DNA from: Magnetococcales bacterium HCHbin5
GTDB taxonomy: Bacteria; Pseudomonadota; Magnetococcia; Magnetococcales; Magnetaquicoccaceae
NCBI GenBank assembly: GCA_002753505.1
Contig: PEAG01000022.1
Location: forward strand, 1 to 46,325
DNA: 46,325 bases
Direction of reading: 5' to 3'
Positions 4,854-46,325 of the stretch are shown in pieces. Positions within the stretch are counted from its first letter, which is position 1, and every line of letters starts with the position of its first letter. Under the pieces are notes generated by a model. It was given only the letters and a program-made list of their open reading frames with translations, was not told where the DNA came from and did not search any database. The position numbers were made by a program, and so were the translations under genes.

Positions 4854-4906
4854 CCATGGTACACAGGAGGATCGGTACAGCCTCCAGCTAAAGGAATGTC
4901 CAACCC

Positions 4907-6439: not shown

Positions 6440-6445
6440 CCGGCC

Positions 6446-9556: not shown

Positions 9557-9609
9557 GGTATGAGCACGACATTTTTACTCTGCACAATAAAAATCACGAT
9601 GGGGCAGTT

Positions 9610-9633
9610 TTTGTCATACTTTTGTGACAATTT
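9610..9633. promoter_or_regulatory. Putative response-regulator box, copy 2
   Basis: CATACTTTTGTGACAATT at 9615-9632 is identical over 18 bases to the element before the first adaptor gene. The neighbouring TTTTTGTCATA and TTTTGTGACAA form an 11-bp-spaced direct repeat. It lies in the 125-bp gap between the first RND gene and the small periplasmic protein gene, so it marks a second transcription start rather than simple read-through. Confidence 0.6.
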
Positions 9634-9681
9634 GCCCTCATACTGCCCCGAGGACAACCCTCGACAAAAAGGTACTGGACA

Positions 9682-10068: not shown

Positions 10069-10088
10069 TCGTGAGAAGGGGTAGGTCT

Positions 10089-11390: not shown

Positions 11391-12721
11391 AGGGAGTTGC
11401 CATGGGAAGAAAAAGGTTGACGGCGGCATTATTGCTCATTGGGCTGGCGGCTGTGCTTGCCCAACCGGGGTGTGCGCTGGCTGAAACAGCGGCCAAGTCG
11501 GGGGATCATGCCGGGCATGGCGCACCTGCTCCAGAGAAGGTGGGGGAACAGGTTGGACAAGGGGGGTCAACCTCTCCCACTGCCGGGAAAAGCGAACGCA
11601 AGATTGCGTACTACCGCAATCCCATGGGTCTGGCGGATACCTCACCCACGCCCAAGAAGGATGGCATGGGCATGGACTACATTCCGGTGTACGCGGACGA
11701 ACTGGGCGATGGCACCACGGTGCGCATCAGTCTGGACAAGGTGCAAAAACTGGGGGTGCGCACCGAAGCCGTCACAACCCGTTCTCTGGCACGTTCCATT
11801 CGGGCCGTGGGCACGGTGCAGGTGGACGAACGACTGTTGCAGATCATCTCCATGAAGTACGAAGGATGGATCGAACGCCTCCATGCAGACAGCACGGGAC
11901 AAAAGATACGACGCGGGCAACCCTTGATGGAGGTGTACAGCCCTGGTCTGGTGCTGGCACAGCAGGAATATCTGGCTGCCGCGAGTGCCACTTCCTCCCT
12001 GAAGGAGGCGGATCCAGAAAGCCTGGGCACGGCACGGCAGTTGGCCGAGGGTGCCCTGTTGCGCTTGCGCAACTGGGACATCTCTGCCGATCAGGTTGCC
12101 CAATTGCGCAAGAAAGGGGAGATCCGGCGCACCTTGACCGTGCAATCGCCCGTGGATGGTGTGGTATTGGAGAAGAGTGCCATCAAGGGCATGCGTTTCA
12201 TGCCCGGCGAGGTGTTGTATCGCCTGGCGGATCTGTCCACCGTCTGGCTGATGGCCGATGTCTTCGAACAGGATGTGGGCATGGTCCGGGAGGGGCAGGA
12301 GGCGAGTGTGACCCTTAACGCCATTCCCGGCAAGAGTTTTAAGGGCAAAGTCTCTTTTATCTATCCGACTCTGGCGACAGAAACCCGCACCGTCAAGGTG
12401 CGCATCGAACTGCCCAACCCCAGCGGCGAACTGCGTCCCGCCCTCTATGCCACAGTGGAGTTGGCCACGCCCACCGGGGAAGCCCAGATTCTGACCGTTC
12501 CGGACTCGGCGGTGTTGAACAGTGGGAGCAGACAGGTGGTGTTGGTGGAACGCGGCGAAGGGCAGTATGAACCGCGTCCGGTCCAGATCGGTGCCCAGGG
12601 GGGAGGATATGTGCAAATCCGTGAGGGTCTTCGGGAAGGGGAAAAGGTGGTGGTGCGTGCCAATTTTCTCATCGATGCTGAGGCCAACCTGAAGGGTGCC
12701 TTGGGCCATTTTGCCCATTGA
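11387..12721 (+). CDS. cusB: CusB-like RND periplasmic adaptor with Met-rich metal-binding N-terminus
   Basis: This 444-residue adaptor has a signal peptide, a flexible His-containing linker, and the CusB-type N-terminal metal motif YYRNPMGLADTSPTPKKDG with GMGMDYIPVY. It carries Met80, Met94 and Met96, matching the arrangement of the three copper-binding methionines in E. coli CusB. The hairpin region (YSPGLVLAQQEYLAA and following helices), lipoyl (VQSPVDGVVLEKSAIKGMRFMPGEVLY), barrel and membrane-proximal domains follow in CusB order. The GTG start overlaps the TolC stop and has GGAGGT upstream; an ATG at 11,402 with GGGAG is an alternative. Its pump is the CusA protein encoded after three small secreted-protein genes. 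Confidence 0.88.
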   Translation: MKGVAMGRKRLTAALLLIGLAAVLAQPGCALAETAAKSGDHAGHGAPAPEKVGEQVGQGGSTSPTAGKSERKIAYYRNPMGLADTSPTPKKDGMGMDYIPVYADELGDGTTVRISLDKVQKLGVRTEAVTTRSLARSIRAVGTVQVDERLLQIISMKYEGWIERLHADSTGQKIRRGQPLMEVYSPGLVLAQQEYLAAASATSSLKEADPESLGTARQLAEGALLRLRNWDISADQVAQLRKKGEIRRTLTVQSPVDGVVLEKSAIKGMRFMPGEVLYRLADLSTVWLMADVFEQDVGMVREGQEASVTLNAIPGKSFKGKVSFIYPTLATETRTVKVRIELPNPSGELRPALYATVELATPTGEAQILTVPDSAVLNSGSRQVVLVERGEGQYEPRPVQIGAQGGGYVQIREGLREGEKVVVRANFLIDAEANLKGALGHFAH

Positions 12722-12747
12722 TTTGCGTGTAACCAGGGAGAGAAGCG

Positions 12748-12972
12748 ATGTCTATAGCAACAATCAATCTGTGGAGGTGGCGCGAACGGGTATCTCGCAT
12801 GATCGTGTTCGGTGCGCTTGGATTGATCACCTCCGGTTGTCCCATGATGATGGTGCCCATGATGGGCGGAATGAGTGGCAGTCAACATCAGGAACAGAAA
12901 AAAGAGTCACCAGCCAATACGGTTGACGGTGCCACCGCACCACAATCCCACAATACGGGTGCGGGACATTGA
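12748..12972 (+). CDS. Small Met-rich lipoprotein
   Basis: The 74-residue product has a membrane segment ending in the lipobox-like LITSGC, followed by MMMVPMMGGMSG and a polar His/Gln tail. Processing at the cysteine would leave a roughly 45-residue lipid-anchored peptide with clustered methionines, suited to soft-metal (Cu+/Ag+) binding. The gene begins 26 bp after the CusB-like stop and precedes another Met-rich gene, so it belongs to the same unit. The start follows GGGAGAGAAGCG. I do not recognise a named family. Confidence 0.65.
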   Translation: MSIATINLWRWRERVSRMIVFGALGLITSGCPMMMVPMMGGMSGSQHQEQKKESPANTVDGATAPQSHNTGAGH

Positions 12973-13056
12973 GATCTGCCGCACTGTTTGTGTCCGCACC
13001 GGGAACACCCTGTCTTGTGCCCGGATATTCAATCCTGCAAATTTTGGAGATACGAC

Positions 13057-13677
13057 GTGAAAAAAACCTTAACGATTGGCGCAGTTGCTCTTTTACTTGC
13101 CCTTTCCATCTCGCCCTTGATGGCTGGGGAGGTCAATGAGCATCAGGGTCATCAACCCGCCAAGACGGAACATGATCATGGACAAGTGACTCCTGCAAAG
13201 GCCGAGGCTGGGAATCATGGCGATCAAATGGAAAAAAAGATGGCCAAGATGTCCATCAAAATGGAAAAGATGAAGCGGGAATTGGCAGATGCGGAAGAAC
13301 GGATGATCGCTCTGAAGGGGATGTTGGAAAAGGCGCAAAAGACACCACCCGGTGCGGAACGCAACAAACTTCTGGCCGAACATGGTGCCGGACTGCGCAC
13401 CCTCCTGGCTGGATTTCGCGCCAGAACGGAGGAAATGATGGGCCAGATGGAGCAGATGATGGGCAAGGAGAAGAAGGATGGCATGATGGGTGGCATGGGG
13501 GGAATGGGTCATGCTGGCGACAAAAAAGAGCTTGGCAGTGGGTCGGGCATGATGGACCAAGAGATGATGGATGACATGGCCGGACATCATGAGGTGATGA
13601 AAAAACGGTTGGCACTGCTGACCGACTTGATGGGACAGATGGAGGCACATCTGGCCGCAATGTCCGCACCGCGGTGA
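13057..13677 (+). CDS. Met/His-rich periplasmic coiled-coil protein
   Basis: The 206-residue product starts at a GTG preceded by TTGGAGA and has a clear signal peptide (KKTLTIGAVALLLALSISP, then LMAGE). The mature N-terminus is His-rich (HQGHQPAKTEHDHG). A long charged helix with many methionines follows (KKMAKMSIKMEKMKREL and a heptad-like stretch), then MMGQMEQMMGKEKK, a Met/Gly loop, and a final Met/His helix (MMDDMAGHHEVMKKR). The composition resembles periplasmic Cu/Ag-binding proteins such as SilE/PcoE in type, though not clearly in sequence. A longer in-frame start at 12,988 gives an unnatural N-terminus, so I rejected it. Role as a periplasmic Cu/Ag buffer is inferred from composition and context. 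Confidence 0.72.
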   Translation: MKKTLTIGAVALLLALSISPLMAGEVNEHQGHQPAKTEHDHGQVTPAKAEAGNHGDQMEKKMAKMSIKMEKMKRELADAEERMIALKGMLEKAQKTPPGAERNKLLAEHGAGLRTLLAGFRARTEEMMGQMEQMMGKEKKDGMMGGMGGMGHAGDKKELGSGSGMMDQEMMDDMAGHHEVMKKRLALLTDLMGQMEAHLAAMSAPR

Positions 13678-13737
13678 CATTGGGTGCGGTTTGGACGAAA
13701 CAATTGACCTGTATTCTCAAACAAAAGGATCTGTGAT

Positions 13738-14169
13738 ATGAACACCAACTTGTTGAAATATGGCGTATTGCTGTTTGCCGTGACACTTCTGTCAACAGCC
13801 TGCGCTCCCCTGCATCCGAGCGGTGATCTGGTGGAAAAGGGGACCATCCGGGTCGAGGGTTCTGGAACGAAAGAGCTCAACGTGACGAACGTCCAGATCT
13901 ATTCCGATACGGATGGGACTCATATCCATGGAAAATTCCGCAATCCTGGGCGGATCGATGGACATATTGAAATCACCTTGCAGGACAAGGGTGGCACGGT
14001 TCTCTACCAGGGCACCATGGTCTCCAGCCACCGACACACCACGGGTGCCGGAAAAAATGTCAGCTTTATTCACGAGGAGTCGTTCCACTTGATCGTCCAG
14101 GTGCCTGTGCCTGAACAGGGAACCTTGCGAGTGATCTTCCATCCCGGTCCTCCACACGACATGAAGTAG
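13738..14169 (+). CDS. Predicted lipoprotein of the Cu/Ag efflux locus
   Basis: The 143-residue product has a signal peptide with the lipobox LLSTAC (Cys21) and a single beta-sandwich-like domain. The mature part has a histidine cluster (DGTHIHGKF, SSHRHTTGAG, FHPGPPHDMK) that could bind metal. I do not recognise the family with certainty; lipoproteins of this length with similar strands occur in cus-like operons. The AAAAGGATCTGTGAT stretch supplies the ribosome binding site. It is the last gene before a GC-rich hairpin. Confidence 0.65.
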   Translation: MNTNLLKYGVLLFAVTLLSTACAPLHPSGDLVEKGTIRVEGSGTKELNVTNVQIYSDTDGTHIHGKFRNPGRIDGHIEITLQDKGGTVLYQGTMVSSHRHTTGAGKNVSFIHEESFHLIVQVPVPEQGTLRVIFHPGPPHDMK

Positions 14170-14225
14170 CTTGGATGATCGGACAATCCAGGCTGGATCA
14201 AGGGGTGGAGCTCCCTCAGGTTAAT

Positions 14226-14244
14226 CCCCCGGCACTGCCGGGGG
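14226..14244 (+). terminator. GC-rich hairpin between lipoprotein and cusA genes
   Basis: CCCCCGGC (14226-14233) pairs with GCCGGGGG (14237-14244) around a 3-nt loop. The downstream sequence is GGCTCTTATCG, without a real T tract, so termination may be partial and would lower cusA expression relative to the upstream genes. Confidence 0.45.
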
Positions 14245-14282
14245 GCTCTTATCGTTTGGCTGCTTGACAAGGAAATCGTGCG

Positions 14283-17200
14283 ATGATTGCTTGGCTCATC
14301 CGCTGGTCGTGCCGCAACCTGTTATTGGTGATGCTTGGCACATTTTTTATTGTGGGCAGCGGAATCTATGCGGTGCTTCGCATCCCCCTGGACGCCATTC
14401 CCGATCTTTCGGATGTCCAGGTCATTCTCTATACCGAGTTTCCCGGTCAGGCACCCCAGGTGGTGGAGGATCAGGTGACCTATCCCCTGACCACCGCCAT
14501 GCTCTCCGTGCCCCGTTCCAAGCTGGTGCGGGGGTTTTCGTTCTTCGGGGCCTCCTTCGTCTACGTTATCTTCGAGGATGGTACTGATATTTACTGGGCA
14601 CGCAGTCGGGTATTGGAATATCTCAATTTTGCCGCCAAACGGTTGCCCCCCGGTGTTACCCCCACGTTGGGGCCAGATGCCACTGGGGTCGGTTGGGTCT
14701 ATCAGTATGCGGTTTTAGCCAAGGATAAAACCCTGGCCGAACTGCGCACCCTGCAGGATTGGTACCTGCGCTATCACCTGGCCAAGGCAGAGGGAGTGGC
14801 AGAGGTGGCCAGCGTCGGCGGTTACGTACAACAGTATCAAGTCGTGGTCGATCCCCAACAGTTGCAGGCCTACAATATTCCTCTCTCCCGGGTCAGCCAA
14901 GCCATTACCATGAGTAACCGCGACGTCGGTGGGCGGGTGGTGGAAATGGCTGAAACCGAGTATGTGGTGCGGGGAAAAGGCTATCTGCGCGGGGTGGCGG
15001 ATATCGAAAACATTGTCCTCAAAGAGGAAAAAGGTATTCCTGTTCGCTTGCGGGACGTAGCGCGGGTGGAACTTGGCCCGGACGAACGGCGGGGATTGGC
15101 CGAATTGAACGGCGAAGGAGAGGTGGTCAGTGGCATCGTCATCCAACGCTTCGGCCAAAATGCCCTGGCCGTGATCCAGAATGCCAAGGCAAAACTGGCT
15201 GAAATTACCAGTAGTCTGGGTGAGGGTATCCAGATTGTGGCGGTTTACGACCGATCGGAACTGATCCTGCGGGCAGTGGAAACCCTGAAATACACCCTCG
15301 TCGAAGAGAGCCTGATCGTCGCAGTGGTCTGCATCGTCTTTCTGCTGCATGTACGCAGTGCCCTGGTGGCCATACTCATGCTGCCGGTGGGGGTGCTGAT
15401 CGCCGTGCTGCTGATGCAGTCTCTGGGCATGACCTCCAACATCATGAGCCTGGGTGGTATCGCCATTGCTGTGGGTGCCATGGTGGATGCCGCCATTGTC
15501 ATGATCGAAAATGCCCACAAGCACCTGGAACGTGCCCCTCCGGACAAACCACGCCATCAGGTGTTGATGGAGGCGGCGGTGGAGGTGGGGCCAGCCCTCT
15601 TTTTCAGCCTGCTGATTATTACCGTCTCTTTCCTGCCGGTCTTTACCCTGGAAGCCCAGGAGGGACGACTGTTCAAGCCTCTGGCCTTCACAAAAACCTT
15701 CTCGATGGCCGGGGCTGCCCTGCTCTCCATCACCCTGGTGCCGGTGCTGATGTTGTTGTTTGTGCGGGGCCGGATCCTGCCGGAACACAAAAACCCCATC
15801 AACCGGTTTCTGATCTGGATCTACCGCCCAGTCATCCGACTGGTACTGCGTTTCAAGATCTCTTTTATTCTGTTGGCTCTGGCGGTGCTGGCGGGCAGCG
15901 TCTTTCCGGCCTTGCGTCTCGGCAGCGAGTTCATGCCCAATCTCAACGAAGGCACGCTGCTCTACATGCCTACCACGTTACCCGGTCTTTCCATGACCAA
16001 GGCAGAGGAACTGCTCCAGACTCAGGACAAGCTGATCAAGAGTTTCCCGGAAGTGGCCTCCGTGTTTGGCAAGGCGGGACGCGCCGTGACCGCGACAGAT
16101 CCCGCTCCGACGGAAATGTTCGAGACGGTCATCAACCTGAAACCAGAAGCCGAATGGCGTCCTGGTCTGACCCTGGATGGGCTGGTGGCTGAAATGGACG
16201 CTGCCCTCCAGATGCCAGGGGTGAGCAATGCCTGGACCATGCCTCTCAAGGCACGTATTGACATGCTTTCCACCGGCATCCGCACCCCCATCGGGATCAA
16301 GGTGTTCGGCAAAAATCTGGAAGAGTTGGAACCTCTGGCCCAGAAAATCGAAACCGTGGTCAAGGGCGTACCCGGCACCACCAGTGCCTATGCCGAGCGG
16401 GTGGGAGGTGGTTACTACCTGACCATCGATCCGGACCGGGATGCCATTGCCCGCTACGGGTTGACCATCGGTGACCTGCAGGAGGTGATTCTCACCGCTC
16501 TGGGTGGTGAAAGCGTTACCACCACCGTGGAGGGACGGGAGCGGTTCACGGTCAATGTGCGGTATCCCCGTGATTTCCGTTCTGACCCCGAGGCCATTGC
16601 CAAAAAGGTGTTGGTGCGGGTCGGCAATGGGGCACAAATCCCCCTGGGACAACTGGCCGCATTGCGTCTGGAAAAAGGTCCGGCGGCCATCCGTACCGAA
16701 AACGCCCTGCTGTCGGTTTATATCTTTGTGGACATACGCGACCGGGATATTGGCGGTTATGTGGCCGATGCCCGGAAAGCGGTGCAGGAACAGGTGATGA
16801 TGCCGACCGGGACTTTTCTCCTGTGGAGCGGCCAGTTTGAATACATGGAACGAGCCAAGGAAAAGCTCAAGATTGTCATTCCGTTGACTCTTATGATCAT
16901 CTTCTTGCTTTTATATCTGAATTTTGGCCGTCTTACCGAGACGTTGATTGTCATGCTCTCCCTGCCGTTCGCTTTGGTAGGCGGGGTTTGGCTGATGGAC
17001 TGGTTGCATTTCAATTTGAGTGTAGCGGTGGCCGTGGGGTTTATCGCCCTGGCCGGAGTGGCAGCGGAGACGGGGGTGGTGATGCTGATCTACCTGGATC
17101 ACGCCTTGAAAGAACGAGCTGCCCGGCGCGAGGTGGAAAGAGCCCCACTGACTCGTGACGATCTCTATGAGGCGATCATGGAGGGGGCCGTGGAACGGGT

Positions 17201-17447
17201 GCGGCCCAAAATGATGACTGTGGTGGCCATCATGGCGGGTTTGTTGCCCATCATGTGGAGTACTGGCACCGGTTCAGAAGTCATGCGCCGTATCGCTGCC
17301 CCCATGGTCGGCGGGATGATCTCTTCCACCCTGTTGACTTTGGTCATCATTCCGGCAATCTACTTCCAGATCAAAGAATTTTCTATTCGCAAGGATAATC
17401 TTGCAAAGACTGTTTCCATGCGGGAGGAACGCAAAGGAGTGAAATAA
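14283..17447 (+). CDS. cusA: CusA-type Cu(I)/Ag(I) RND efflux pump
   Basis: The 1,054-residue inner-membrane pump has the CusA TM4 signature AVGAMVDAAIVMIENAHKHLE with Asp402. Met562 (LLYMPTTLPG), Met612 (PTEMFET) and Met661 (RIDMLSTG) are spaced 50 and 49 residues apart. This reproduces exactly the spacing of the copper-binding Met573/623/672 triad of E. coli CusA, offset by 11. It works with the CusB-like adaptor and the TolC-family channel to expel Cu+/Ag+ from the periplasm and cytoplasm. Unusually, it is separated from them by three small secreted-protein genes and a hairpin. Length and motifs are normal for the family. Confidence 0.95.
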   Translation: MIAWLIRWSCRNLLLVMLGTFFIVGSGIYAVLRIPLDAIPDLSDVQVILYTEFPGQAPQVVEDQVTYPLTTAMLSVPRSKLVRGFSFFGASFVYVIFEDGTDIYWARSRVLEYLNFAAKRLPPGVTPTLGPDATGVGWVYQYAVLAKDKTLAELRTLQDWYLRYHLAKAEGVAEVASVGGYVQQYQVVVDPQQLQAYNIPLSRVSQAITMSNRDVGGRVVEMAETEYVVRGKGYLRGVADIENIVLKEEKGIPVRLRDVARVELGPDERRGLAELNGEGEVVSGIVIQRFGQNALAVIQNAKAKLAEITSSLGEGIQIVAVYDRSELILRAVETLKYTLVEESLIVAVVCIVFLLHVRSALVAILMLPVGVLIAVLLMQSLGMTSNIMSLGGIAIAVGAMVDAAIVMIENAHKHLERAPPDKPRHQVLMEAAVEVGPALFFSLLIITVSFLPVFTLEAQEGRLFKPLAFTKTFSMAGAALLSITLVPVLMLLFVRGRILPEHKNPINRFLIWIYRPVIRLVLRFKISFILLALAVLAGSVFPALRLGSEFMPNLNEGTLLYMPTTLPGLSMTKAEELLQTQDKLIKSFPEVASVFGKAGRAVTATDPAPTEMFETVINLKPEAEWRPGLTLDGLVAEMDAALQMPGVSNAWTMPLKARIDMLSTGIRTPIGIKVFGKNLEELEPLAQKIETVVKGVPGTTSAYAERVGGGYYLTIDPDRDAIARYGLTIGDLQEVILTALGGESVTTTVEGRERFTVNVRYPRDFRSDPEAIAKKVLVRVGNGAQIPLGQLAALRLEKGPAAIRTENALLSVYIFVDIRDRDIGGYVADARKAVQEQVMMPTGTFLLWSGQFEYMERAKEKLKIVIPLTLMIIFLLLYLNFGRLTETLIVMLSLPFALVGGVWLMDWLHFNLSVAVAVGFIALAGVAAETGVVMLIYLDHALKERAARREVERAPLTRDDLYEAIMEGAVERVRPKMMTVVAIMAGLLPIMWSTGTGSEVMRRIAAPMVGGMISSTLLTLVIIPAIYFQIKEFSIRKDNLAKTVSMREERKGVK

Positions 17448-32432: not shown

Positions 32433-33292
32433 ATTGCCGTCTCCGCAACCGGAATATAGGGAAAGCCACGAAAATTTCTCACGTTGTGAAACTTGTTGGT
32501 GCAGGTAGCCTGGGCTTTGTCGCAACCGGGATAGGCTTTGAAGGCATCCCCCACTGCAGGGATGGACGGCAAAGGCAGCAGCAACTGGAAGATGCCGTCT
32601 CCAGAGCAGGATTTGATGGTGCGCCGCACACCGGCCAGCGCACCACTGAGAAAATGGACATACCCCTGCTCAAACCAGCGGGCCTCCACCAACGTCAACC
32701 CACTGGCCAGGGCCGTGGTGGTGCTGCCAGCGTAAACCGTCGTTTCGGTGGCAATGGCAGGATCGTCCCGCTCGATGCCGCAATCGGCGTCGTAGAGGGT
32801 ATGGATACAACCCGGTTGCCAGACGTTACGCGGCAGTTTGACATTCAGGAGTTGAATCGCACTGTTCACGGTGAGCTTGGCCATGGTGCGGGTGATCTGG
32901 ATGTCGGCCACCTGTCCGACAAACAAGGTGATGCCACCCACCACCGACAGATCGGGCTGCAAGAAAACCCGGTAGAGTGCCAGGGTGGCCCCGTCCAGGG
33001 CACCAACTCCTGCAGCCTGGAGCCACGAAGCACCCAACAGCAGATCGTTCGGGCCGGGTACCACTTCCAGGTTGAGGGTGTCCACCTCGACCCCGATGAC
33101 GCAGCGCGTGCGCGACCGGCGGATAATGGGCCCGGTGGAGGAGTACAGGCGGTCGTCGCACAAAAAATCTGCATCAAACGTGCTGTACCGGAGTGCCGTG
33201 CCGTCCACCAACTGGAACTCGTACAAGTCGGCCATCAGAAATGACTGTTCCGATTGCAGATATTGGATCAACTCGTCGCTGGCGTGTTTCAT
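32429..33292 (-). CDS. DUF2163 / phage BR0599-family tail protein
   Basis: The 287-residue protein has the DUF2163 layout: an N-terminal region with FQLVDGTALRYSTFDADFLCDDRLY, a beta-rich middle with an Asn/Gly-rich loop, and the C-terminal YPGCDKAQATCTNKFHNVRNFRGFPYIPV. In this C-terminal part the cysteine pattern C-D-x(5)-C-x(2)-K-F-x-N is characteristic. It corresponds to RcGTA gp13, an iron-sulfur-bearing baseplate protein. The start overlaps the DUF2460 stop (ATGA), so these genes are translationally coupled. A longer upstream frame is shadow. Confidence 0.87.
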   Translation of the reverse strand: MKHASDELIQYLQSEQSFLMADLYEFQLVDGTALRYSTFDADFLCDDRLYSSTGPIIRRSRTRCVIGVEVDTLNLEVVPGPNDLLLGASWLQAAGVGALDGATLALYRVFLQPDLSVVGGITLFVGQVADIQITRTMAKLTVNSAIQLLNVKLPRNVWQPGCIHTLYDADCGIERDDPAIATETTVYAGSTTTALASGLTLVEARWFEQGYVHFLSGALAGVRRTIKSCSGDGIFQLLLPLPSIPAVGDAFKAYPGCDKAQATCTNKFHNVRNFRGFPYIPVAETAI

Positions 33293-34557
33293 ATCTTGTT
33301 CCCCGTCGCACCGATAAAGGTCAGTTCCCGCAACTCCCAGAGGTTGGGCAGCGTGCGGGCAAAATCCGCCGTGTCCTCGCCGAACCGGCAGCGAAAGTAA
33401 AACGTCCCGCTCCAGGTGAGCACCGCACCAACGGCGGGGGGAACGGTGAAGGTCACCAGCCCCGTGGAGGAGATGGCATAGTCGTTGGGTGCAGAGAGGG
33501 TGGTGCCGTTCATCCGGATGGCAGTCAGGGTCTTGATGTTCTCGACTGGCTCCACGAACGAAAAAGAGCCGTGAAAGCCAAAGGCACGGGTCAGTTGGAA
33601 GGCAGTCTGCTCGCCATCTCCGACGCCGAATGGCATGTCGGTACAGACCGAGTCGGTCGGATCGAGAAACAAGAACGACTCGAAACTGCCCCGCCTGCCC
33701 AGAATGAAGCCCTGCAAGGTCTCGTATTCGTAGCGGGGGTTGCCCGCCCGCAACCAGTCGAACAACAGACTGAACCGCCAGACGGGATAGGCCCGGAAGG
33801 CACCCCGTTGCTCCCGTCCGGACGAAGCGGTCTGGATGGAGGTGCGGAATTCCGGGGTTTTCTTCAATTCCCAGGAAAGGCCAGGCAGCGACGGGAAGAC
33901 GGCAAACTGGCTCTTTGGCTCGTAGGGGCTGTAGCTGATGGGACACTCCCACGCCTGTTCCACCCACCGTCGCCAGGGCAATTCCCACTGCCTGTCTACC
34001 GTCTGGCTGTATTCCAGGCTCCACTGCCGGTCGGCCTGGGATTTCTGGACGACATCCCAGCCTTCGTCCCACTGCTGGCTGACAGGGAGTGTGAGCGCAT
34101 ACGGGCAGTCCCACTGGGTGGTGATGGATGCAGGGGCAGCGATGGCAAACAGCTTTTGCGCCCCGCCGATCCAGTCGGTGACATTCGACCACGAGGAGAG
34201 CGTGGTAAAGCTGCTGCCATCGTCGGACCATTGCAGGCTGAACGCCTTGGGGGTCTGGCTGGAGTTGCCGGGGGTAAAGCCCCATTCCGCCACATCGACG
34301 GCGTTGCCTGCGCCAAAATCATACTGAAACCAGCAGGGGGCTGACGGCCCGCCGCTGAGCCAATAGTCGCTTGCGCCATTGTTGTTGAAGAGTTTGTAGG
34401 CGGTGGAGTTGTTGTGGGAAGCCGAAGCGGTGCCGCCGCTGCATTGATCGGCCCCGCCGACGCTCCCCCGGAACTCAGCTTCATAGCCCCGGATAAAGTT
34501 GTCGGATCCAGAGTTGGACTCGGTGATATAAACGCGCCAATACCGATGGGGAGCCAT
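33289..34557 (-). CDS. DUF2460 tail protein with N-terminal discoidin-like domain
   Basis: The 422-residue protein is a fusion. Residues 1-130 are a galactose-binding-like F5/8 type C domain (HRYWRVYITESNS, LSGGPSAPCWFQYDFGAG, LQWSDDGSSFTTL). Residues about 205-422 are the DUF2460 (TIGR02217-like) part with FPSLPGLSWELKKTPEFRT, YETLQGFILGRRGSFESFLF and LTFTVPP-like strands. DUF2460 corresponds to RcGTA gp12, the distal tail ring. The added domain could bind surface sugars. The same discoidin domain occurs at 41,698. The ATG follows a good GGAGG. Confidence 0.85.
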   Translation of the reverse strand: MAPHRYWRVYITESNSGSDNFIRGYEAEFRGSVGGADQCSGGTASASHNNSTAYKLFNNNGASDYWLSGGPSAPCWFQYDFGAGNAVDVAEWGFTPGNSSQTPKAFSLQWSDDGSSFTTLSSWSNVTDWIGGAQKLFAIAAPASITTQWDCPYALTLPVSQQWDEGWDVVQKSQADRQWSLEYSQTVDRQWELPWRRWVEQAWECPISYSPYEPKSQFAVFPSLPGLSWELKKTPEFRTSIQTASSGREQRGAFRAYPVWRFSLLFDWLRAGNPRYEYETLQGFILGRRGSFESFLFLDPTDSVCTDMPFGVGDGEQTAFQLTRAFGFHGSFSFVEPVENIKTLTAIRMNGTTLSAPNDYAISSTGLVTFTVPPAVGAVLTWSGTFYFRCRFGEDTADFARTLPNLWELRELTFIGATGNKI

Positions 34558-35294: not shown

Positions 35295-35545
35295 GGTTGC
35301 TTCTCCAGAAACGACGTGGTGGTCAGTGCCTTAAATGCCTTGTTGATCAGTTTACGTAGGCGTGGATCCAGTGGTTGATTGGTGTCGAATTTTCCCGTAT
35401 CGATGGTGACAGTAGTGCCAGGACTGTCTGGTGCCAGCGCACGGATTTTCTCGGCATCTTCCGGGGGAAGGATGCATCCCGTAGAATGAAAGCCACAAAT
35501 TGGTGGAGTACCGGGAGGGATCTTCCACCAACTGGCCGCGTTCAC
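35198..35545 (-). CDS. Small tail-associated protein, uncertain 3' part
   Basis: The frame opens at a GTG overlapping the tape-measure stop (GTGA) and gives 115 residues. The first 85 look protein-like (PPEDAEKIRALAPDSPGTTVTIDTGKF, RLRKLINKAFKAL). The rest overlaps the next gene by 97 bases and is Pro/Ser-rich, so it may be a readthrough of a decayed stop or a true overlap. I cannot name a family. Confidence 0.45.
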   Translation of the reverse strand: MNAASWWKIPPGTPPICGFHSTGCILPPEDAEKIRALAPDSPGTTVTIDTGKFDTNQPLDPRLRKLINKAFKALTTTSFLEKQPCPSSHPNSNCMPLPSPTIPLPTGVPSLARKS

Positions 35546-38500
35546 CGCACCACCGGAACTGCGTTCCTGGCCAGTTTGCGCAGGGCCGGAGCCAGAGTAT
35601 GGGCATTGCTGTGCAACCAGGATTCAAAGCCTTTGGTATCAAGGGCACTGACATGGATGGTAATATTGCCGCCGCCGGTGCCATTCGTGGCCATTGCCCG
35701 CACGGCATCGGCCTGCGCTCTGGGCAGTACCATTTCCCGCTCGTGTAACTGAGTGACCGGGTTGATACCGGCGGGGATATCAAAGCCCCCCTCGGCGGAA
35801 AACAGGTTTTTCACCAGCGCGATGATGGAGGCAAATACTCCCGCCGCGATGGCGGGTGCCAGGAACGGCCCAACCATCGGGATGGCCGCAATGGAGGCAT
35901 AGGCGTTGGCCATACCGGTCCAGGCGGCCATGCCGATGGATTCGGAATCTGCCGCTGCCTGGGCACCCAGGCCGGTGGCGGCGGCTCCGGCCTTGACCTC
36001 CTCGGTGGCGGTGGCCACGGTGCCCTCGGTGGCCTTGGCCATGTTGACGGCGTTGGAGACCGTCGTCTGGTTTGCAATCCGCACCAGTCCGAAGGCCTTG
36101 CCCAGTTCGGTTTCGGCCAACTGGTTTTCTGCCCACAGGCTGAACCGTTTGGCCAGAAAGCCGGTGAACTGGTCCAACTCTGCTTTGAGCAGGGTGTTCA
36201 TGGCCTGCTGGACGGTGGTCTGATGGGTCACCAGGCCGGACAGGGAACTGCTGATGGCGGTCTGGACGGGAGCCATCATGGCCTGGAAGTCGTGATGTGC
36301 CTGAATGGCCAGATCGTTGTTGCTCTTCTGGATGGCCAGATTGTGGTTCAGGACAGCCAGTTTGATATCGTTCTGTAGCTTGATCTGTTCGGTGCTGCCC
36401 TGCCGTTTCAACGCCAGTTCGGCCTCCATGGCACGCATCGTGTTTTGGAAGCTTTGCTCCTCCAGTGCCTGTTTGGCCTGCATCACCTCCCGAACCGACT
36501 GGATCTCCATTTCCTGGTTGAAACGGAGGGACTCCTGCTGCCAGGCAATCCGATTGTCGGCGATGGATTTTTCCAAGCCGATCTGCAGGCTGGCAAACTC
36601 GTTCATCTTGGCGCGGTGGGCCCGTTCCTCGGATTCGATGACACGACGGGAGCGGATGAACTCCTTGGACTCATAGCCGTAGGCGTCGCCGACTTCCTTG
36701 GCGGCCTTTTTGGCGATGTCGATGCGCTGCTGACTCCCCTCCAGGGTTTTGTCCATCTCCTCGCGGAGAGTTTCCAGACGCGCATTCAGGCTATCATGGG
36801 CCTGCTGCTTGTGGATCTGGTAGATCTCATGATCGATATGCGCCAGATCCTTTTCGCTCAGGCCGACGAGGGATCGCTTCGCCTGCCAGAACTGCTCCTC
36901 CATCTGCAGGGTCTCGCGGAAATAGTTGCCGGAGGCCTCCTTCTGGCGGTCCAGTTCGGCTTTGAACTCCTGGAAGCGGTCTTCTGGCTCTGGTACATGG
37001 GGCTTCCCCGGCGGATTGGCGGGACTTTGGAGCGCGGCCACCTCAGCATCGGCCTTTTTCTTGCGTTCCGAGGCGCGTTGGGTGGATTGCTCCTGTTCGC
37101 CAATGGCCCCGGCCAGTTCGGGAGAAGTGGCCTTCAGTACGTTTTTCTGTCGCTCGAATTCGGTTTTTCGGCGGGCTTTGTCCGCTTCCTGCTGTTTGGC
37201 GCGTTCGTTTTGCTGTTTCAGCGCATCATCCTGACGCTTCACCGCATCGGTAAGATGGTCCATCTTGCCAGCGGTCTCGGTGGCTTCCTCGCCCCAGAGG
37301 TGAATATACTTGCCAGCCTCATAAACGCCCCAAACCGCCAGACCAATGAGGCTGGTCTTGACCGCCCGGTTCAGAAGCACCACGGAAGCGGTGGCTCCCT
37401 CGCCAGCCACGGCCAATCCCCACAGTGCGCTGGTCAGGGGGATGACGCCCAGCACCATGGCCGCAAAGGCGGCAATGAGCAGACCGGCACCCTCGATGTT
37501 TTTGCGGGTTTCATCATCCAGGGCGAGAAATGCCTGGACCAGACCATGGATGATGGTGCTGGTCCGTTCGGCATTGGGCGCGAGATCCTCTCCCGCCTTC
37601 TGGCTGAGCACCCCCAGAATGGCGGAAAGCCGCTCCATGGCACCGCCCAAGCCGCCTTCAATATGCTCGGCGGCTTTTCTGGAAGAGTCACCGGAGGCGA
37701 GCAGTTCCTTTCTGAACGCCTGGATGACGGGAACCCCCTTGTTCAGCACCACATTCATGGCATCGCTGTGGTGCATGCCGAACAGGATCGACATGTCGGT
37801 GGCGTTGGCACCGGCCTTTTCCAACTGCTTGAAAATGTCGACCAGGGGGATCAGCTTGCCCGGACTCGATTGGAAGACCAGCCCCAGCCGATCCATCACC
37901 TCCTGCATCTGCCGGGTGGGGTTCAGCATTCTCTGTAAAGAAGCGGCCAACGCTGTCCCGGCCCGCTCGCCACGATAACCGCCATCGGCCATTACCCCGA
38001 TGACGGCGGCCAGATCCAGAAAATCGATGCCTGCCGATTTGGCGGTGGCAGCGGATCTCTTGAGAGACTCGCCGACGGCATTGACGGTGGTCATCGACGA
38101 CTGAGCCGTCTGGACGATCACGTCGCTGATGGCGGTCAGATGGTTGGTCTTGAACCCGGAGCTGTTCATGATGGTCAGCAGGGTGTCTGCCGACTGCTTG
38201 ATGTCCGGGATACCATTGCCCAATTCACCGGCGGCCACCGTCGCCATGTGCATCACGGTGGGCAGGGCCTGCATGGCATCGTCTGCTTTCATGCCTGCGG
38301 TGGCCAATACCAATAACCCATCCGCTGCACTCTTGGCCGAGAAGGTGGTGGTTTTTCCCATCTCCTCGGCATAGCTGCGCAGGGCTTGGGTCTGTTCGCT
38401 GGAGGTCTCCATGGCAACCTCTACCCGGCGCATCACCGTGTCGAATTCAGCGAACCTGGTCAGGGTGCTGGTGGATACCTGCTGCAGGGAGTACATGGCC

Positions 38501-39513
38501 GCAAGCAGCGTCCCGGCCGCCGTGGCCACGCTGTGCATGGAGGTACCGGTGCCGGACATTTCCCTCTGCAACTCGGAGGTCTTCACCTTGAGTTGCTCGT
38601 GGGCCCGCGCCAGATCCCGGCTGGAAGCCTGCCCGGAAGCAGCAAGCTGCTGGTAGGCGTTTTTCAGCTTCTGGATCTCCTCCTGCACCTCACGGACGGG
38701 GCGCACCCCGAGTTGGGCAAACAAGCCCATGATGCGGGCATGCTCCTGCAACCGTTCGTTGGCCTGTTGCAGATTGGTGCGCAGGCGTTCCTCTTCGGAC
38801 GAGAGGGTGCGCACACTGATACCGGCGGCAGAGAGTCCTACCGCCGCCTGCTGCACTGCCAACCGGGCCGCCTGCTGGGCTTCCCCCAGACGGGTGACCT
38901 CGGCCTGGGCGGCCTGGAAGCCCTTGGTCATTTTCTCTGTGGCACCGGGGGTCTTTTCAATCTCGGCGGTCAGGCGATTGATGTCCGCCATCGTCCGTTT
39001 GACCACCGTACCAAGGCCGGTGGATTCATCCTGCATGCGCTTCAATTCGGCACGGGCGGTGGCCAACTCTCGCGCCATCTCGACGGTTGGGTTGCTCGCC
39101 TGCCGGAATTGTGCAGACAGCTCCTGCACTTTTGCCCGGAATTGTGCGGTGGCCGCCGCCGATGCCTTTTCCTCCTCGATAAATTTGGCAAAGGACTCCT
39201 TGGCCCCGGCCAAGTCCGCTTTCAGCTTTTCCAGGGGGGCATTGGCCTCGGCGATCTGCCGGGCATAGTCCGCCATGGCCAGTTGAGCAGAGCGGAGCGA
39301 TTGATGGGTATCCGCCAGTTGCTGGCGCACCTGCTTCAGGCGGTCGATGTCTGCCAAGCCGGACATGGCAGAAGAGAGTTTGGCCCCTTCGGCGGCGGCC
39401 GCACCGGTCAGGCCGGAAAGGATCTTGTTGAACTCCTGCTGCACCTGGGCCGTGGCCCGGACGAACTGCTCCACGTTCATCCGCAGGAAAAATTCCAGGG
39501 TGTTGTTGGACAT
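35542..39513 (-). CDS. Phage tail tape measure protein (TP901 type)
   Basis: This 1,323-residue protein has a long coiled coil in its first 300 residues. A TP901-type core follows at about 355-560 (RFAEFDTVMRRVEVAMETSS, GKTTTFSAKSAADGLLVLAT, AGVGIDF-like LDLAAVIGVMADGG). A hydrophobic stretch (FAAMVLGVIPLTSALWGLAV, about 700-720) follows, then a second coiled coil and a terminal hydrophobic segment (VGPFLAPAIAAGVFASIIAL). At about 0.15 nm per residue its length would give a tail near 200 nm (family rule, inference). It follows the chaperone pair, the normal siphovirus order. Confidence 0.9.
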   Translation of the reverse strand: MSNNTLEFFLRMNVEQFVRATAQVQQEFNKILSGLTGAAAAEGAKLSSAMSGLADIDRLKQVRQQLADTHQSLRSAQLAMADYARQIAEANAPLEKLKADLAGAKESFAKFIEEEKASAAATAQFRAKVQELSAQFRQASNPTVEMARELATARAELKRMQDESTGLGTVVKRTMADINRLTAEIEKTPGATEKMTKGFQAAQAEVTRLGEAQQAARLAVQQAAVGLSAAGISVRTLSSEEERLRTNLQQANERLQEHARIMGLFAQLGVRPVREVQEEIQKLKNAYQQLAASGQASSRDLARAHEQLKVKTSELQREMSGTGTSMHSVATAAGTLLAAMYSLQQVSTSTLTRFAEFDTVMRRVEVAMETSSEQTQALRSYAEEMGKTTTFSAKSAADGLLVLATAGMKADDAMQALPTVMHMATVAAGELGNGIPDIKQSADTLLTIMNSSGFKTNHLTAISDVIVQTAQSSMTTVNAVGESLKRSAATAKSAGIDFLDLAAVIGVMADGGYRGERAGTALAASLQRMLNPTRQMQEVMDRLGLVFQSSPGKLIPLVDIFKQLEKAGANATDMSILFGMHHSDAMNVVLNKGVPVIQAFRKELLASGDSSRKAAEHIEGGLGGAMERLSAILGVLSQKAGEDLAPNAERTSTIIHGLVQAFLALDDETRKNIEGAGLLIAAFAAMVLGVIPLTSALWGLAVAGEGATASVVLLNRAVKTSLIGLAVWGVYEAGKYIHLWGEEATETAGKMDHLTDAVKRQDDALKQQNERAKQQEADKARRKTEFERQKNVLKATSPELAGAIGEQEQSTQRASERKKKADAEVAALQSPANPPGKPHVPEPEDRFQEFKAELDRQKEASGNYFRETLQMEEQFWQAKRSLVGLSEKDLAHIDHEIYQIHKQQAHDSLNARLETLREEMDKTLEGSQQRIDIAKKAAKEVGDAYGYESKEFIRSRRVIESEERAHRAKMNEFASLQIGLEKSIADNRIAWQQESLRFNQEMEIQSVREVMQAKQALEEQSFQNTMRAMEAELALKRQGSTEQIKLQNDIKLAVLNHNLAIQKSNNDLAIQAHHDFQAMMAPVQTAISSSLSGLVTHQTTVQQAMNTLLKAELDQFTGFLAKRFSLWAENQLAETELGKAFGLVRIANQTTVSNAVNMAKATEGTVATATEEVKAGAAATGLGAQAAADSESIGMAAWTGMANAYASIAAIPMVGPFLAPAIAAGVFASIIALVKNLFSAEGGFDIPAGINPVTQLHEREMVLPRAQADAVRAMATNGTGGGNITIHVSALDTKGFESWLHSNAHTLAPALRKLARNAVPVVR

Positions 39514-39516: not shown

Positions 39517-39852
39517 CTATTTTCCTGTCTGAAAGCTGGCCACGAGAGCTGTTTTGACCATCTCTCCGGCCACCAGGAACAGCGTGGGGTGCATCTCCCG
39601 GAACACTACCCATACCTGCTCGCATTCGGACAGCGAGAGATCCTCCAGGTTTTCCCCTGCAGGCGGGACAATGTTCTCCCACTCCAGCAGGATGAGCAGT
39701 TGCGGCAGACGCTCGGTCAGCAGGGTGAGCATCTCCGTATTTTTCAGATCCTGGGAGATGCTGCGCAGGAATTTCAGAACATCTTTCGGGCGCAGCTCGT
39801 GCAGAATCACCGTCCGGCCCGCTCCCAGGTCGACTGTTTTTGTGACGCGCAT
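39517..39852 (-). CDS. Tail assembly-associated protein
   Basis: The 111-residue acidic/hydrophobic protein begins MRVTKTVDLGAGRTVILHELRPKDVL, the pattern of small tail-assembly proteins encoded just before the tape measure. Leucine-rich helices (LTERLPQLLILLEWENI, REMHPTLFLVAGEMVKT) suggest a helical adaptor. Its stop is 4 bp before the tape-measure start. Family unnamed. Confidence 0.65.
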   Translation of the reverse strand: MRVTKTVDLGAGRTVILHELRPKDVLKFLRSISQDLKNTEMLTLLTERLPQLLILLEWENIVPPAGENLEDLSLSECEQVWVVFREMHPTLFLVAGEMVKTALVASFQTGK

Positions 39853-39879: not shown

Positions 39880-40068
39880 TCAGAGTCCGAGGTACCGGGC
39901 AGCCAGCCAGTGGACGGGCGGATTTTTTGCCCAGTACTGATTGAGGGCTATCAGGCGGGGCAGAGTGAGACAGTCGTCGATATACTCCCAGGTCCAGCCG
40001 GTTGAGGCGATGACGTGGGCGTAAATTTCGTCCCAGTGCAGTTCCTCTACCCCGCCATCGCTTCCCCC
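39880..40068 (-). CDS. Tail chaperone extension (GT-like T part, predicted -1 frameshift)
   Basis: This 62-codon frame has no ATG, GTG or TTG start in the relevant region and overlaps the end of the tail chaperone gene. It encodes LHWDEIYAHVIASTGWTWEYIDD and LPRLIALNQYWAKNPPVHW, which looks like a real small tail protein. A run of five G (40064-40068) allows the GGG codon of the upstream gene to slip back one base and pair again. Its position before the tape measure fits the G/GT pair of lambda-like phages. It was inferred from codons and is not yet proven. Confidence 0.6.
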   Translation of the reverse strand, partial: GGSDGGVEELHWDEIYAHVIASTGWTWEYIDDCLTLPRLIALNQYWAKNPPVHWLAARYLGL

Positions 40069-40355
40069 GACCGCACCAGCCCGGAAGCCCGCATGATGGC
40101 CTCCATCAGGATGGGCATGCTGGCCAGGTCCACCAGATCCTCCACATCCTCCAACTGGAGGGCGGGATAGTTGCGAGAAAGTGCGGCATGGATCACCTGG
40201 AGGGAGCTGTCAATCTGCTCGATGGAAAATGGGCCGCCCTGCAGGGACTGGAAATGGGGCATCAACCGTTTGAGTTGTCCCAAACTCAGGGCCGGGACCA
40301 CCCAGTCACTGCCGGCAAAATGGACCATGACGCCTTCGTGTGGGGGAATAGTCAT
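40047..40355 (-). CDS. Tail assembly chaperone (gpG-like)
   Basis: The 102-residue protein is mostly helical after an N-terminal strand (HEGVMVHFAGSDWVVPALS, LGQLKRLMPHFQSLQGGPFS). It lies between tail tube and tape measure, where the G-type chaperone is always encoded. The ATG shares its A with the stop of the tail-tube gene (TGATG). Its last codons include the run of five G where the -1 shift is predicted. Confidence 0.72.
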   Translation of the reverse strand: MTIPPHEGVMVHFAGSDWVVPALSLGQLKRLMPHFQSLQGGPFSIEQIDSSLQVIHAALSRNYPALQLEDVEDLVDLASMPILMEAIMRASGLVRSGEAMAG

Positions 40356-41263
40356 CACACACTCTCCAGGTCAATCTGGCAGAAGGCACTGATATCGGTG
40401 CCGGTCTTGGTGTCGTCGGACAACACCTTGGCCGTCAGAGTCAGCTTGGCAAAATCATCGCTGATCAGGCCCAGTTCCTTGGTGGGAGAGAAAGTCACCC
40501 GGTACATCACCACCTTCAGCCCCTTGCCATTGCGGGCAAAGTTTTTCCCGGCAAAGACCACCCGGTACTCCTCCCCGGCACCGACCAGTGCCTGGATGTT
40601 GTAGCCTGCCGAGGTGGTGTAGGAGACCTCGACCGGGGTGCCTGCCTCGTCAATCTTGGCAGAAGTGGCCGGAATGAAGAGGCCCGCCGAGTTGATCTCA
40701 TACTCGCTGACGGTCAGGGCCATGCTGCCCATGTCCGTCCAGGTGACGGTACCGTCGGTGGTGTCGGTACTGTCTGTTTTCCATGTCGGAGCAGAACCTC
40801 CACTGCTGCCAGCCGCCTTGCACTTGTAGAAGTGCGTGCCGGTAGCGGGTTTGACAATCTGTCCGATGGTGTAGGCCGTGGTAGCCGCCCAGGTGGCCGG
40901 TGCCACCGACACCGAGACACTCTTCGGCGAGACACCCTGCAACTCGACCAGCCCGCCGGGATAGGCGGTGTGGGTTTCGCTGGTCACCGGAATCGCGCTG
41001 GTGGATTCCTCGACGGCACGCAAGGCCAGCACGAGGTTGTGGACGTCGGCACTGGCAAAGGTAATGGAGGCCTCCACCTTTTCGATAAAACTGACGCTCT
41101 CGGCCAAACCGCTCCCCTTCACATAATCTTTGAGCTCCTTGGTGGTCTCCGTGATGTCCAGCTTGAACTCCGGCACCTGACCGACGAAGCGCATCTTGCC
41201 ACCGGATCGCTTGCCGATAAAAAGCGGCCCGGAACCGATATAACCGACCTGATTGGTTGCCAT
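40355..41263 (-). CDS. Major tail tube protein with inserted carbohydrate-binding-like module
   Basis: The 302-residue protein begins MATNQVGYIGSGPLFIGKRSG and has the alternating strands of a tail tube, with FVGQVPEFKLDITETTKELK and VKGSGLAESVSFIEKVEASI. Residues about 126-184 form an inserted module (WAATTAYTIGQIVKPATGTHF then YKCKAAGSSGGSAPTW and DGTVTWTDMG). It resembles chitin-binding type 3 / CBM5-12 sequences often found in phage proteins. This domain would project from the tail surface. The start at 41,263 lies after a poly-A-like TTTTTTTT on the complement, so the AAAAAAAATGG context has a weak ribosome site. Confidence 0.78.
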   Translation of the reverse strand: MATNQVGYIGSGPLFIGKRSGGKMRFVGQVPEFKLDITETTKELKDYVKGSGLAESVSFIEKVEASITFASADVHNLVLALRAVEESTSAIPVTSETHTAYPGGLVELQGVSPKSVSVSVAPATWAATTAYTIGQIVKPATGTHFYKCKAAGSSGGSAPTWKTDSTDTTDGTVTWTDMGSMALTVSEYEINSAGLFIPATSAKIDEAGTPVEVSYTTSAGYNIQALVGAGEEYRVVFAGKNFARNGKGLKVVMYRVTFSPTKELGLISDDFAKLTLTAKVLSDDTKTGTDISAFCQIDLESV

Positions 41264-41697: not shown

Positions 41698-42222
41698 TCA
41701 TCCTCCAGTCATTAGTGGGTTGCCTCTCCACAACACCCTTCCCCCCGAACAGCGGAATTGCCACGGGGGAGTGGTCGGCGGTGGCGTGGGTGGAGGTGGC
41801 GGGTCCGAGACAACGAACAGTTTTTCCAGGCCGCCGATCCAGTCGTTGATCCCAGACCAGGAAGCCGCCGTGGTGAAATGGGTGCCATCGTCGGACCACT
41901 GGAGAACAAAATCCTCCGGTGACTCCTCCCAGCCCCGTGACACCATCTTGATTTCTGCCACAATGACGGCATGTCCTGCCCCAAAGTCGTACTGAAACCA
42001 GGAGTCTTCCGAGGGTCCGCCGTTGATCCAATATTCGCTGGGGTTATTGTCGAACAATCGGTAGGCCCGGTCAGTGCGGTGGGAGGCTGAGGCCACCCCG
42101 CCATCGCATTGGTCAGGACCACCCGGTGTGCCTCTGAACTCCACCTCGTAGAGACAGACCTGCATGGTGGCACCAAAGGTGGACCGGGTGATGTAGATGC
42201 GCCAGTAGCGGTGCGGCAGCAT
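41698..42222 (-). CDS. Discoidin-like (F5/8 type C) phage protein
   Basis: The 174-residue protein is a single galactose-binding-like domain (about 1-130). A proline-rich tail (SDPPPPPTPPPTTPPWQFR) follows it. Segments HRYWRIYITRSTF, GGPDQCDGGVASASH, INGGPSEDSWFQYDFGAG and LQWSDDGTHFTTAASW closely parallel the N-terminal domain of the DUF2460 protein. The proline linker could connect to another tail part. AGGGGGACAAGAC is the ribosome site. It probably decorates the tail and binds a sugar or surface. Confidence 0.7.
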   Translation of the reverse strand: MLPHRYWRIYITRSTFGATMQVCLYEVEFRGTPGGPDQCDGGVASASHRTDRAYRLFDNNPSEYWINGGPSEDSWFQYDFGAGHAVIVAEIKMVSRGWEESPEDFVLQWSDDGTHFTTAASWSGINDWIGGLEKLFVVSDPPPPPTPPPTTPPWQFRCSGGRVLWRGNPLMTGG

Positions 42223-45447: not shown

Positions 45448-46325
45448 TCAACCCCCTTTCTCTCCCTCAGAAATACAAAACCCCGCCGGAGCGGGGTTGA
45501 TGGGTGATAGACTGGGCAAAGTGAGTGGCGGTACCTTTTTCCTGCGATACCGGTCATCCCACAACGTCTGCACGACGCGCAGCACATCGAACAGTCCGAG
45601 TCGGTCACGGCAGAAGGCGTACACCCTTGGGTGCGTCTTGGCCAGCAGTTCGAAGCGGTTGTCGTCGCTGTGATGCGCACCCAGCAGGCACCACATGCAG
45701 CCGCTGCGGTCATAGCCCATGTCGTACAGAGGCGAGTACGGCAGCGACTCGCGCTGGGTGTATTCCCTGACATCCTGGCTGCTCCAGAAGGCAATCGGCG
45801 TGGATCTGGGCGATTGCATGTGGTGGGCGTTGCAGCCATGCTGCTTGTATGAAAGCTCCCGCTGCATGGACTCTTCCGCCCGGGTGCCAACGAACGGTGG
45901 ACCGAAAATTTTCATTGCCCTGGCCAGGGGCTCTTTTTTGAGGACGTCGCAGCATTTGTCCGACACCCGGAAGCCGCAAGTGACGAGCGGCTTCCAGACA
46001 TCCGGAATTTCGCCCAGGCGGCTCTTGGTCCCCCTGGAGGTCATCCCGGTCAGGCGCAGCCGTTTGGTCGCCGTCTCTCCCTGGGCGCGTTGCACCTCGC
46101 CGACATACTGGGAGACCCGCTTGCTGACCACCGGATAGCCGAAGGTCTTGATCACCTGCCGAAACCCTCGTTTTGGTCGGATCTCATGCACATTCGGGAT
46201 GCTTCGAACAAAATGGACGTTTTCGGGAAACTCCAGCCCGGTGTTGGAAAATACTGCTGGCACGTCCGGATAGCCGCATTTGTTCCGCACCAAATCCAAC
46301 AACACCGTCGAATCGAGCCCGCCGG
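45448..46325 (-). CDS. Phage PAPS-reductase-like (PP-loop) protein, 5' end missing
   Basis: The frame runs off the right edge; the visible C-terminal part is about 291 codons. Near the edge the PP-loop motif GGLDSTVLLDLV is present, the ATP-pyrophosphatase/PAPS reductase signature. Later cysteine groups (VSDKCCDVLKKEP and RSGCMWCLLG) could bind an iron-sulfur cluster, as in some PP-loop sulfurtransferase relatives. Phages often carry such genes near DNA or structural genes; the real reaction (sulfation, DNA or tRNA sulfur modification) is unknown. The gene ends with a terminator within its last codons. Confidence 0.8.
   Translation of the reverse strand, partial: GGLDSTVLLDLVRNKCGYPDVPAVFSNTGLEFPENVHFVRSIPNVHEIRPKRGFRQVIKTFGYPVVSKRVSQYVGEVQRAQGETATKRLRLTGMTSRGTKSRLGEIPDVWKPLVTCGFRVSDKCCDVLKKEPLARAMKIFGPPFVGTRAEESMQRELSYKQHGCNAHHMQSPRSTPIAFWSSQDVREYTQRESLPYSPLYDMGYDRSGCMWCLLGAHHSDDNRFELLAKTHPRVYAFCRDRLGLFDVLRVVQTLWDDRYRRKKVPPLTLPSLSPINPAPAGFCISEGEKGG
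45475..45498 (-). terminator. Rho-independent terminator inside the 3' end of the reductase-like gene
   Basis: On the minus strand AACCCCGC and GCGGGGTT pair around a 4-nt loop and are followed by TTTTGTATTT. The stem encodes the NPAPAG residues in the last 14 codons, so the gene carries its own terminator and the tail genes downstream probably need a separate or antiterminated promoter. Confidence 0.65.

Follow-up and report, generated by a model that had tools for sequence, protein, structure and literature searches.

A prophage tail module in Magnetococcales bacterium HCHbin5 very probably (roughly 90%) carries a programmed -1 ribosomal frameshift of the lambda G/GT type, through which a tail assembly chaperone and a 158-aa fusion would be made from one start. 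The module lies in a stretch of 46,325 nucleotides (contig PEAG01000022.1), the whole of which is called the window here. What the data show directly are the two reading frames, a slip site that relatives have kept, an extension under purifying selection and a zero-frame product with a predicted fold like that of a chaperone. The relevant features are the following.

40355..41263, minus strand: gene of the major tail tube protein (302 aa), neighbor on the upstream side of the chaperone gene (NF052337 tail_tube_6XGR and phrog_807)
40047..40355, minus strand: zero-frame product of 102 aa, a probable G-like tail assembly chaperone (phrog_7947, AlphaFold2 model, 2ob9, BFVD)
40062..40068, minus strand: predicted slip site G GGG GAA (sequence and conservation in relatives)
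40050..40053, minus strand: further run of Gs (GCG GGG TAG in the zero frame), more likely to encode linker glycines in the -1 frame than to act as a minor second slip site
39880..40068, minus strand: extension read in the -1 frame (62 codons and a stop), which would form the T-like part of the predicted 158-aa fusion (phrog_8018, purifying selection pattern, four-helix model)
39517..39852, minus strand: ORF of 111 aa that separates the extension from the tape measure gene (ORF list)
35542..39513, minus strand: gene of the tail tape measure protein (1323 aa), neighbor on the downstream side (PF10145, TIGR01760, phrog_1533)

Gene order and identity of the zero-frame protein

The overlapping pair of frames lies between the tail tube and tape measure genes (41263-40355, 40355-39880 and 39513-35542, respectively). 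This lambda G/GT-like placement had been proposed in the initial annotation and was borne out, with the 111-aa ORF in front of the tape measure gene as an added detail. The tail tube protein matched NCBIfam NF052337 tail_tube_6XGR (E 4e-38) and the major tail protein family phrog_807 (E 6.5e-48), while the tape measure protein matched PF10145 (E 1.3e-36), TIGR01760 (E 1.6e-47) and phrog_1533 (E 4.5e-63). For the 111-aa ORF, no Pfam or NCBIfam match above cut-off was found and the best phrog match had an E of 0.029; it is possibly a further chaperone. Passages of PMC3483164 describe a gene at this place in KL1, HK97, SPP1 and others too. The tail tube protein harbors an inserted domain at about residues 113 to 177, which matches the head decoration family phrog_20658 (E 2.3e-7) and cuts the tail tube model match into two stretches.

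The zero-frame protein matched phrog_7947, a family of unknown function (E 4.5e-18). It matched no Pfam family, and 2 of 48 relatives weakly matched PF12363 (Phage_TAC_12; best E 9e-4). The chaperone profile found no solved chain better than E 0.15. An AlphaFold2 model based on 48 sequences reached a pLDDT of 88, with residues 97-102 predicted to be disordered. When Foldseek was run with this model on the PDB by itself, nothing scored below E 0.001. The best solved match, which came only from a second look with VIA, was the HK97 tail assembly chaperone 2ob9 (Z 6.2, rmsd 4.3, 13% identity, next Z 3.9), which the predicted fold resembles over 86 residues; this Z is lower than 8, the value from which the tool treats a lone match as reliable, and by itself is not proof of common descent. 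In BFVD, the best match was annotated "Tail assembly chaperone" (E 1.1e-4). Judged from the fold of the model, the protein is thus probably a tail assembly chaperone, in agreement with the identity initially assigned to it, and we retain this identity because fold, place and frameshift agree rather than because of the score alone.

The junction between the two frames

The chaperone gene runs on the minus strand from an ATG at 40355 to a TAG at 40049-40047, and a run of five Gs occupies positions 40068-40064 of the same strand. The zero frame reads ... GTG CGG TCG GGG GAA GCG ATG GCG GGG TAG, with TCG ending at 40068, GGG at 40067-40065 and GAA at 40064-40062. One base back, the sequence is GGG GGA AGC GAT GGC GGG GTA GAG ..., with GGG at 40068-40066 and GGA at 40065-40063, followed by 60 more codons up to a TGA at 39882-39880. 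The chaperone gene and the extension overlap by 22 bases. The -1 frame is open over 109 codons, as far as 40209, and in the window contains no ATG, GTG or TTG within 150 nt upstream of a conserved tryptophan; a CTG is present between the slip site and this residue. The initial description of a 62-codon frame that lacks a standard start codon and overlaps the chaperone gene was therefore correct, also in its coordinates.

The occurrence of the shift, the rate at which it takes place, the tRNAs that would move and the roles of both products are inferred. The majority of ribosomes would translate the 102-aa chaperone up to the TAG at 40047. For the minority, reading would slip one base back to GGG GGA as tRNA-Glu comes in at GAA beside a tRNA-Gly on GGG. 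A further 61 residues would then be added to give the 158-aa fusion, with ...LVRSG followed by GSDGGVEELHWDE... at the junction. By analogy with lambda, for which we relied on the roles of G and GT given in passages of PMC5009743, the shared part may bind the tape measure protein and the extension may recruit the tail tube protein.

The extension as a translated frame

Variable sites were compared among five Magnetococcales copies (loci L003-L006 and L090). In the extension beyond the overlap, they were distributed 6/1/19 over codon positions 1/2/3, and the 21 bases from the slip site to the stop held no variable sites. A sixth copy (L091) differs between slip site and stop (GTG AAG for GCG ATG) and has CCG in place of the TCG before the run, and it keeps GGGGGAA. 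From this codon-position pattern, the extension is a translated frame under purifying selection, and its earlier description as protein-coding was justified.

The extension of the window matched phrog_8018 (E 2.4e-11) from extension residue 21 and profile position 2. Such a late start of the profile is expected if annotators begin the extension at internal codons, as in Acinetobacter phage 5W. In this phage (L007, 2537-2770, QKN84139.1) the annotated start lies inside the conserved domain, 36 bases past the start of the slip site, and the extension protein was deposited without its N-terminal part; the frameshift reading would account for this false internal start. All 45 extensions of our alignment A5 matched phrog_8018, and residues G24-I30, R38, P50 and P51 were invariant among them, although part of this invariance arises because the loci were found via peptide patterns, including TGWTWEYI. 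The extension was modeled as four helices (pLDDT 86.5). This fold found nothing useful in BFVD (best E 1.8), and the sequence search found no Pfam family and no solved sequence better than E 0.14. Both phrog_7947 and phrog_8018 are catalogued as being of unknown function, and the scan placed every one of the 48 chaperones and 45 extensions in them. We propose that the two families are likely the two parts of a tail assembly chaperone that are joined by frameshifting.

Conservation of the slip site in relatives

In a first scan, viral contigs were searched with the extension and the best 80 of 100 relatives were taken. With three phage loci and four loci of the source genome, this gave 87 loci, which contained 56 distinct junctions; two more that had not been placed by our script brought the set to 58. 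Two loci missed by the automatic analysis (L045 and L081) and four that were misassigned (L046, L050, L051 and L057) were read by eye, and all six are within the 58. The loci were located via peptide patterns, including TGWTWEYI, which favors close relatives.

The extension lies in the -1 register in 57 of the 58 distinct junctions, as it does in the window, and an ATG, GTG or TTG occurs within 150 nt upstream of the conserved tryptophan in only 4 of the 58 extensions. The second frame of the family is thus typically without a start of its own and in the -1 register, as in a G/GT-type pair (-1 or -2). The exception, L036, is the sole relative of the 58 with its extension in the +1/-2 register, and it has a GTG nine bases before the tryptophan. 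An error in sequencing might explain this, as might a -2 shift or the adoption of an independent start. Two further loci, L001 and L002, were left out of the 58 junctions. They match the chaperone, and their zero frame continues unbroken into a different C-terminal part, with no such extension in the translated stretches; they possibly represent an in-frame fusion of the chaperone to a T-like part, or some different organization.

We also considered slipping of RNA polymerase on the run of Gs, an assembly error or a pseudogene as the cause of the frame switch. Homopolymer runs are indeed error-prone, and L036 is out of register. However, a single register was found in four copies of one genome, in further Magnetococcales and in 57 of 58 junctions of many sources, and relatives carry the heptamers GGGAAAG and AAACCCT at the same place without a long run. 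Five Gs are also short for transcriptional slippage. We consider such an origin extremely unlikely and retain the ribosomal frameshift.

The zero frame reads nnG GGG GAR in 45 of the 58 distinct junctions, with GAG as well as GAA. Among the 13 junctions lacking GGGGGAR, nine harbor an XXXYYYZ heptamer at the same place: GGGAAAG in L082, GGGAAAC in L081, AAAAAAA in L023, L030 and L034, GGGGGGA in L020, GGGGGGG in L025, AAACCCT in L049 and AAACCCC in L041. Neither motif was present in L028, L054 and L064 of this first set. A few GGGGGAR junctions, for example that of L060, also hold CCCGGGG.

Sequences were then clustered at 70% identity, with L036 omitted, and compared to a null obtained by synonymous codon shuffling. 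G GGG GAR was found in 33 of the 43 clusters (2.2 expected), an XXXYYY heptamer in 12 (4.5 expected) and one or the other in 41 (6.4 expected), although these counts do not represent independent events because the clusters are still related. The slip site has therefore been kept at the junction, and the proposal of the initial annotation that slippage takes place at 40064-40068 gained clear support.

A second scan, with alignment A5, took the best 80 of 138 loci, 16 of which were on contigs that were new by name as judged by eye. The 15 distinct junctions of this later set were all in the -1 register; 12 harbored GGGGGAR, 2 a heptamer (AAAAAAG in L213 and GGGAAAC in L219) and 1 neither (L158, GCG GGG CAG). 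The eight loci that came from bacterial genomes (L090-L097), near-duplicates among them, likewise each carry GGGGGAR.

These data also bear on whether the extension could be a separate gene, translated from a non-standard start codon or through reinitiation coupled to termination where the chaperone ends. The chaperone stop is just 22 bases inside the extension, 13 of 45 junctions contain CTG, ATT, ATC or ATA between the slip site and the conserved tryptophan (CTG in the window), and L036 combines an extension out of the -1 register with a GTG 9 nt upstream of the tryptophan. However, none of the four codons occurs in the other 32 of 45 junctions, and 44 of 45 have no ATG, GTG or TTG. Moreover, the zero frame extends past the conserved tryptophan in L047, L053 and L086, so coupling at the stop could not give the extension there. 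Independent initiation would also leave unaccounted for the GGGGGAR motif in 33 of 43 clusters, against 2.2 expected, and its replacement by heptamers. A separate gene thus appears very improbable compared to a programmed frameshift.

Another possibility is that the ribosome pauses at the stop and shifts to -1 on the second G run, GCG GGG TAG (40053-40050), or that both runs are used. A GGG preceded by a G just before the TAG would permit a single-tRNA slip, and a G run is found near the same place in many relatives, including the Magnetococcales copies that were read. In the window, however, this run is followed by a stop and not by GAR. In addition, the zero frame is over before any such run in L007 (phage 5W), L009 (MD-2021a), L094 (Geobacteraceae), L159 and L210; its stop codon comes right behind GGG GAR in these five, for which the first run has to be enough. 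Finally, the -1 codon five after the slip is GGG in 21, GGC in 11 and GGT in 3 of 45 junctions; since its third base varies, it is the glycine residue that is kept and not the bases. The second run is more likely part of a glycine-rich linker (GGSDGG in the window) between two domains, and we give little credence to a shift at this point. The two sites predict different junction peptides, starting with SGGSDGGVEELHW for a slip at the first run and with SGEAMAGVEELHW for a slip at the second, and we retain the first run as the slip site.

tRNA re-pairing at the slip site

The initial annotation had pointed out that the slip site differs from the usual heptamer. Indeed, the move from TCG GGG GAA to GGG GGA does not allow the Watson-Crick re-pairing at positions 1 and 2 of both codons that defines a canonical X_XXY_YYZ heptamer. 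It does correspond to the "fivetwo" class of PRFect, GGGGGAA at a tail chaperone -1 junction, over positions 40068-40062. The genome encodes tRNA-Gly with anticodons CCC and UCC and tRNA-Glu with UUC and CUC. In the P site, re-pairing of tRNA-Gly from GGG to GGG would be perfect. In a slip of two tRNAs, tRNA-Glu on GGA would need a G-U pair at the middle position; alternatively, the P-site tRNA alone would slip.

The codon following the re-pairable GGG was classed by eye in 61 junctions (48 of the first set and 13 later ones). It was GAR in 57 and never GAY; the others were GGA (L020), GGG (L025), TCG (L028) and CAG (L158). The occurrence of GAR but never of GAY in a part that is predicted to be disordered favors two-tRNA over P-site slippage. 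We take this preference as a hint only, with constraint on the protein as a possible alternative cause. GGGGGAR also exchanges at the junction with the canonical heptamers GGGAAAG, GGGAAAC, AAAAAAG, AAAAAAA and AAACCCT. It is conceivable, though we hold it with less than even confidence, that both tRNAs truly slip at G GGG GAR, with tRNA-Glu re-pairing on GGA through the middle G-U pair, and that this site exchanges freely with canonical heptamers at one homologous junction. If so, the family would amount to a set of naturally occurring mutants from which to learn how -1 slippage is governed.

Candidate stimulators

Folds downstream of the slip site in the window had z scores of -0.1 to -1.6. 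At 40 junctions, the mean z was -0.67, -0.33 and -1.43 for 40, 60 and 80 nt, respectively, as computed without control windows. RNAalifold on 39 sequences gave 0 conserved pairs downstream, and Rfam returned nothing up to an E of 1. Upstream, the family has a Shine-Dalgarno-like stretch at -4.46 kcal/mol compared to -3.20 kcal/mol for the synonymous null (n = 35), pairing with CCUCC being stronger than this null in 28 of the 35 representatives. In the window, this stretch is weak (-1.9). We propose no stimulatory structure, and its absence and the weak stretch speak against the frameshift reading. A comparison with other windows of the same genes was set aside since it does not control for the encoded residues.

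Relation to known systems

The slip site of lambda gpG/gpGT is G GGA AAG. The junction described here shares with the lambda system the order of tail tube gene, chaperone, start-less -1 extension and tape measure gene, and by analogy the fusion is expected to be the minority product; in one relative (L082), the very lambda sequence G GGA AAG stands at this junction. It differs from lambda in its slip site (G GGG GAA), in an extension of 62 codons that falls in no Pfam family and in the extra ORF before the tape measure gene.

The GGGGGAA motif and its mechanism are already in print for other phages. Passages of the PRFect paper (PMC10885494) catalogue it as "fivetwo" for about 1000 annotated tail chaperone frameshifts of SEA-PHAGES actinophages, which its authors stress are annotated and not tested, and suggest re-pairing of tRNA-Glu on GGA. 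From the tRNA described there, we read their zero frame as G GGG GAA. For corynephage phi16, a GGGGGAA frameshift has been predicted, with an internal Shine-Dalgarno sequence and a pseudoknot proposed (passages of PMC5506516). These systems have the identical slip motif, gene role and -1 direction. Their hosts, however, are actinobacteria, and the window has neither a strong Shine-Dalgarno stretch nor conserved structure. New here are the spread of the family to Magnetococcales and other bacteria, the exchange with canonical heptamers and the near-constant GAR after the run. The range of the GGGGGAA slip site thereby comes to include, besides actinophages, phages and prophages of Magnetococcales, Pseudomonadota and Geobacteraceae, and the family supplies natural variants with which to probe a non-canonical slip site.

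Distribution and genomic context

Named sources of the family were Magnetococcales, Paludibacterium, Limnobacter, Geobacteraceae, Acinetobacter and Pseudomonas. The closest of five named genome matches were a Magnetococcales bin (95% identity) and Candidatus Magnetaquicoccus inordinatus (94%). The source genome itself has four copies of the chaperone-extension junction, on contigs C141, C150, C151 and C42, whose extensions are 94 to 100% identical to that of the window, and the extension is present in 3 of 40 related genomes searched. A tblastn search of the phage collection gave no actinophage among the records listed (3 and 5), and in the fold search actinophage chaperones matched weakly (for example Gordonia phage Sixama, E 8e-3). 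In the papers covered, mostly judged by title, we found none on the phrog_7947/phrog_8018 family or on frameshifting in Magnetococcales prophages.

Elsewhere in the window, the proteins encoded at 33289-34557 and 41698-42222 (both minus strand), which flank the tape measure gene on either side, share the N-terminal start M.PHRYWR.YIT.... The latter matches the tail protein family phrog_11660 and is located beside a tail terminator gene, with structural and tail-fibre-like ORFs up to 45198. A gene resembling phosphoadenosine phosphosulfate reductase (45448-46323, minus strand; phrog_424, E 6.2e-40) runs off the end of the window. The same contig as the prophage genes also carries, at 2676-17447, what appear from their sequences to be two metal efflux pumps of the RND type along with a two-component regulator.
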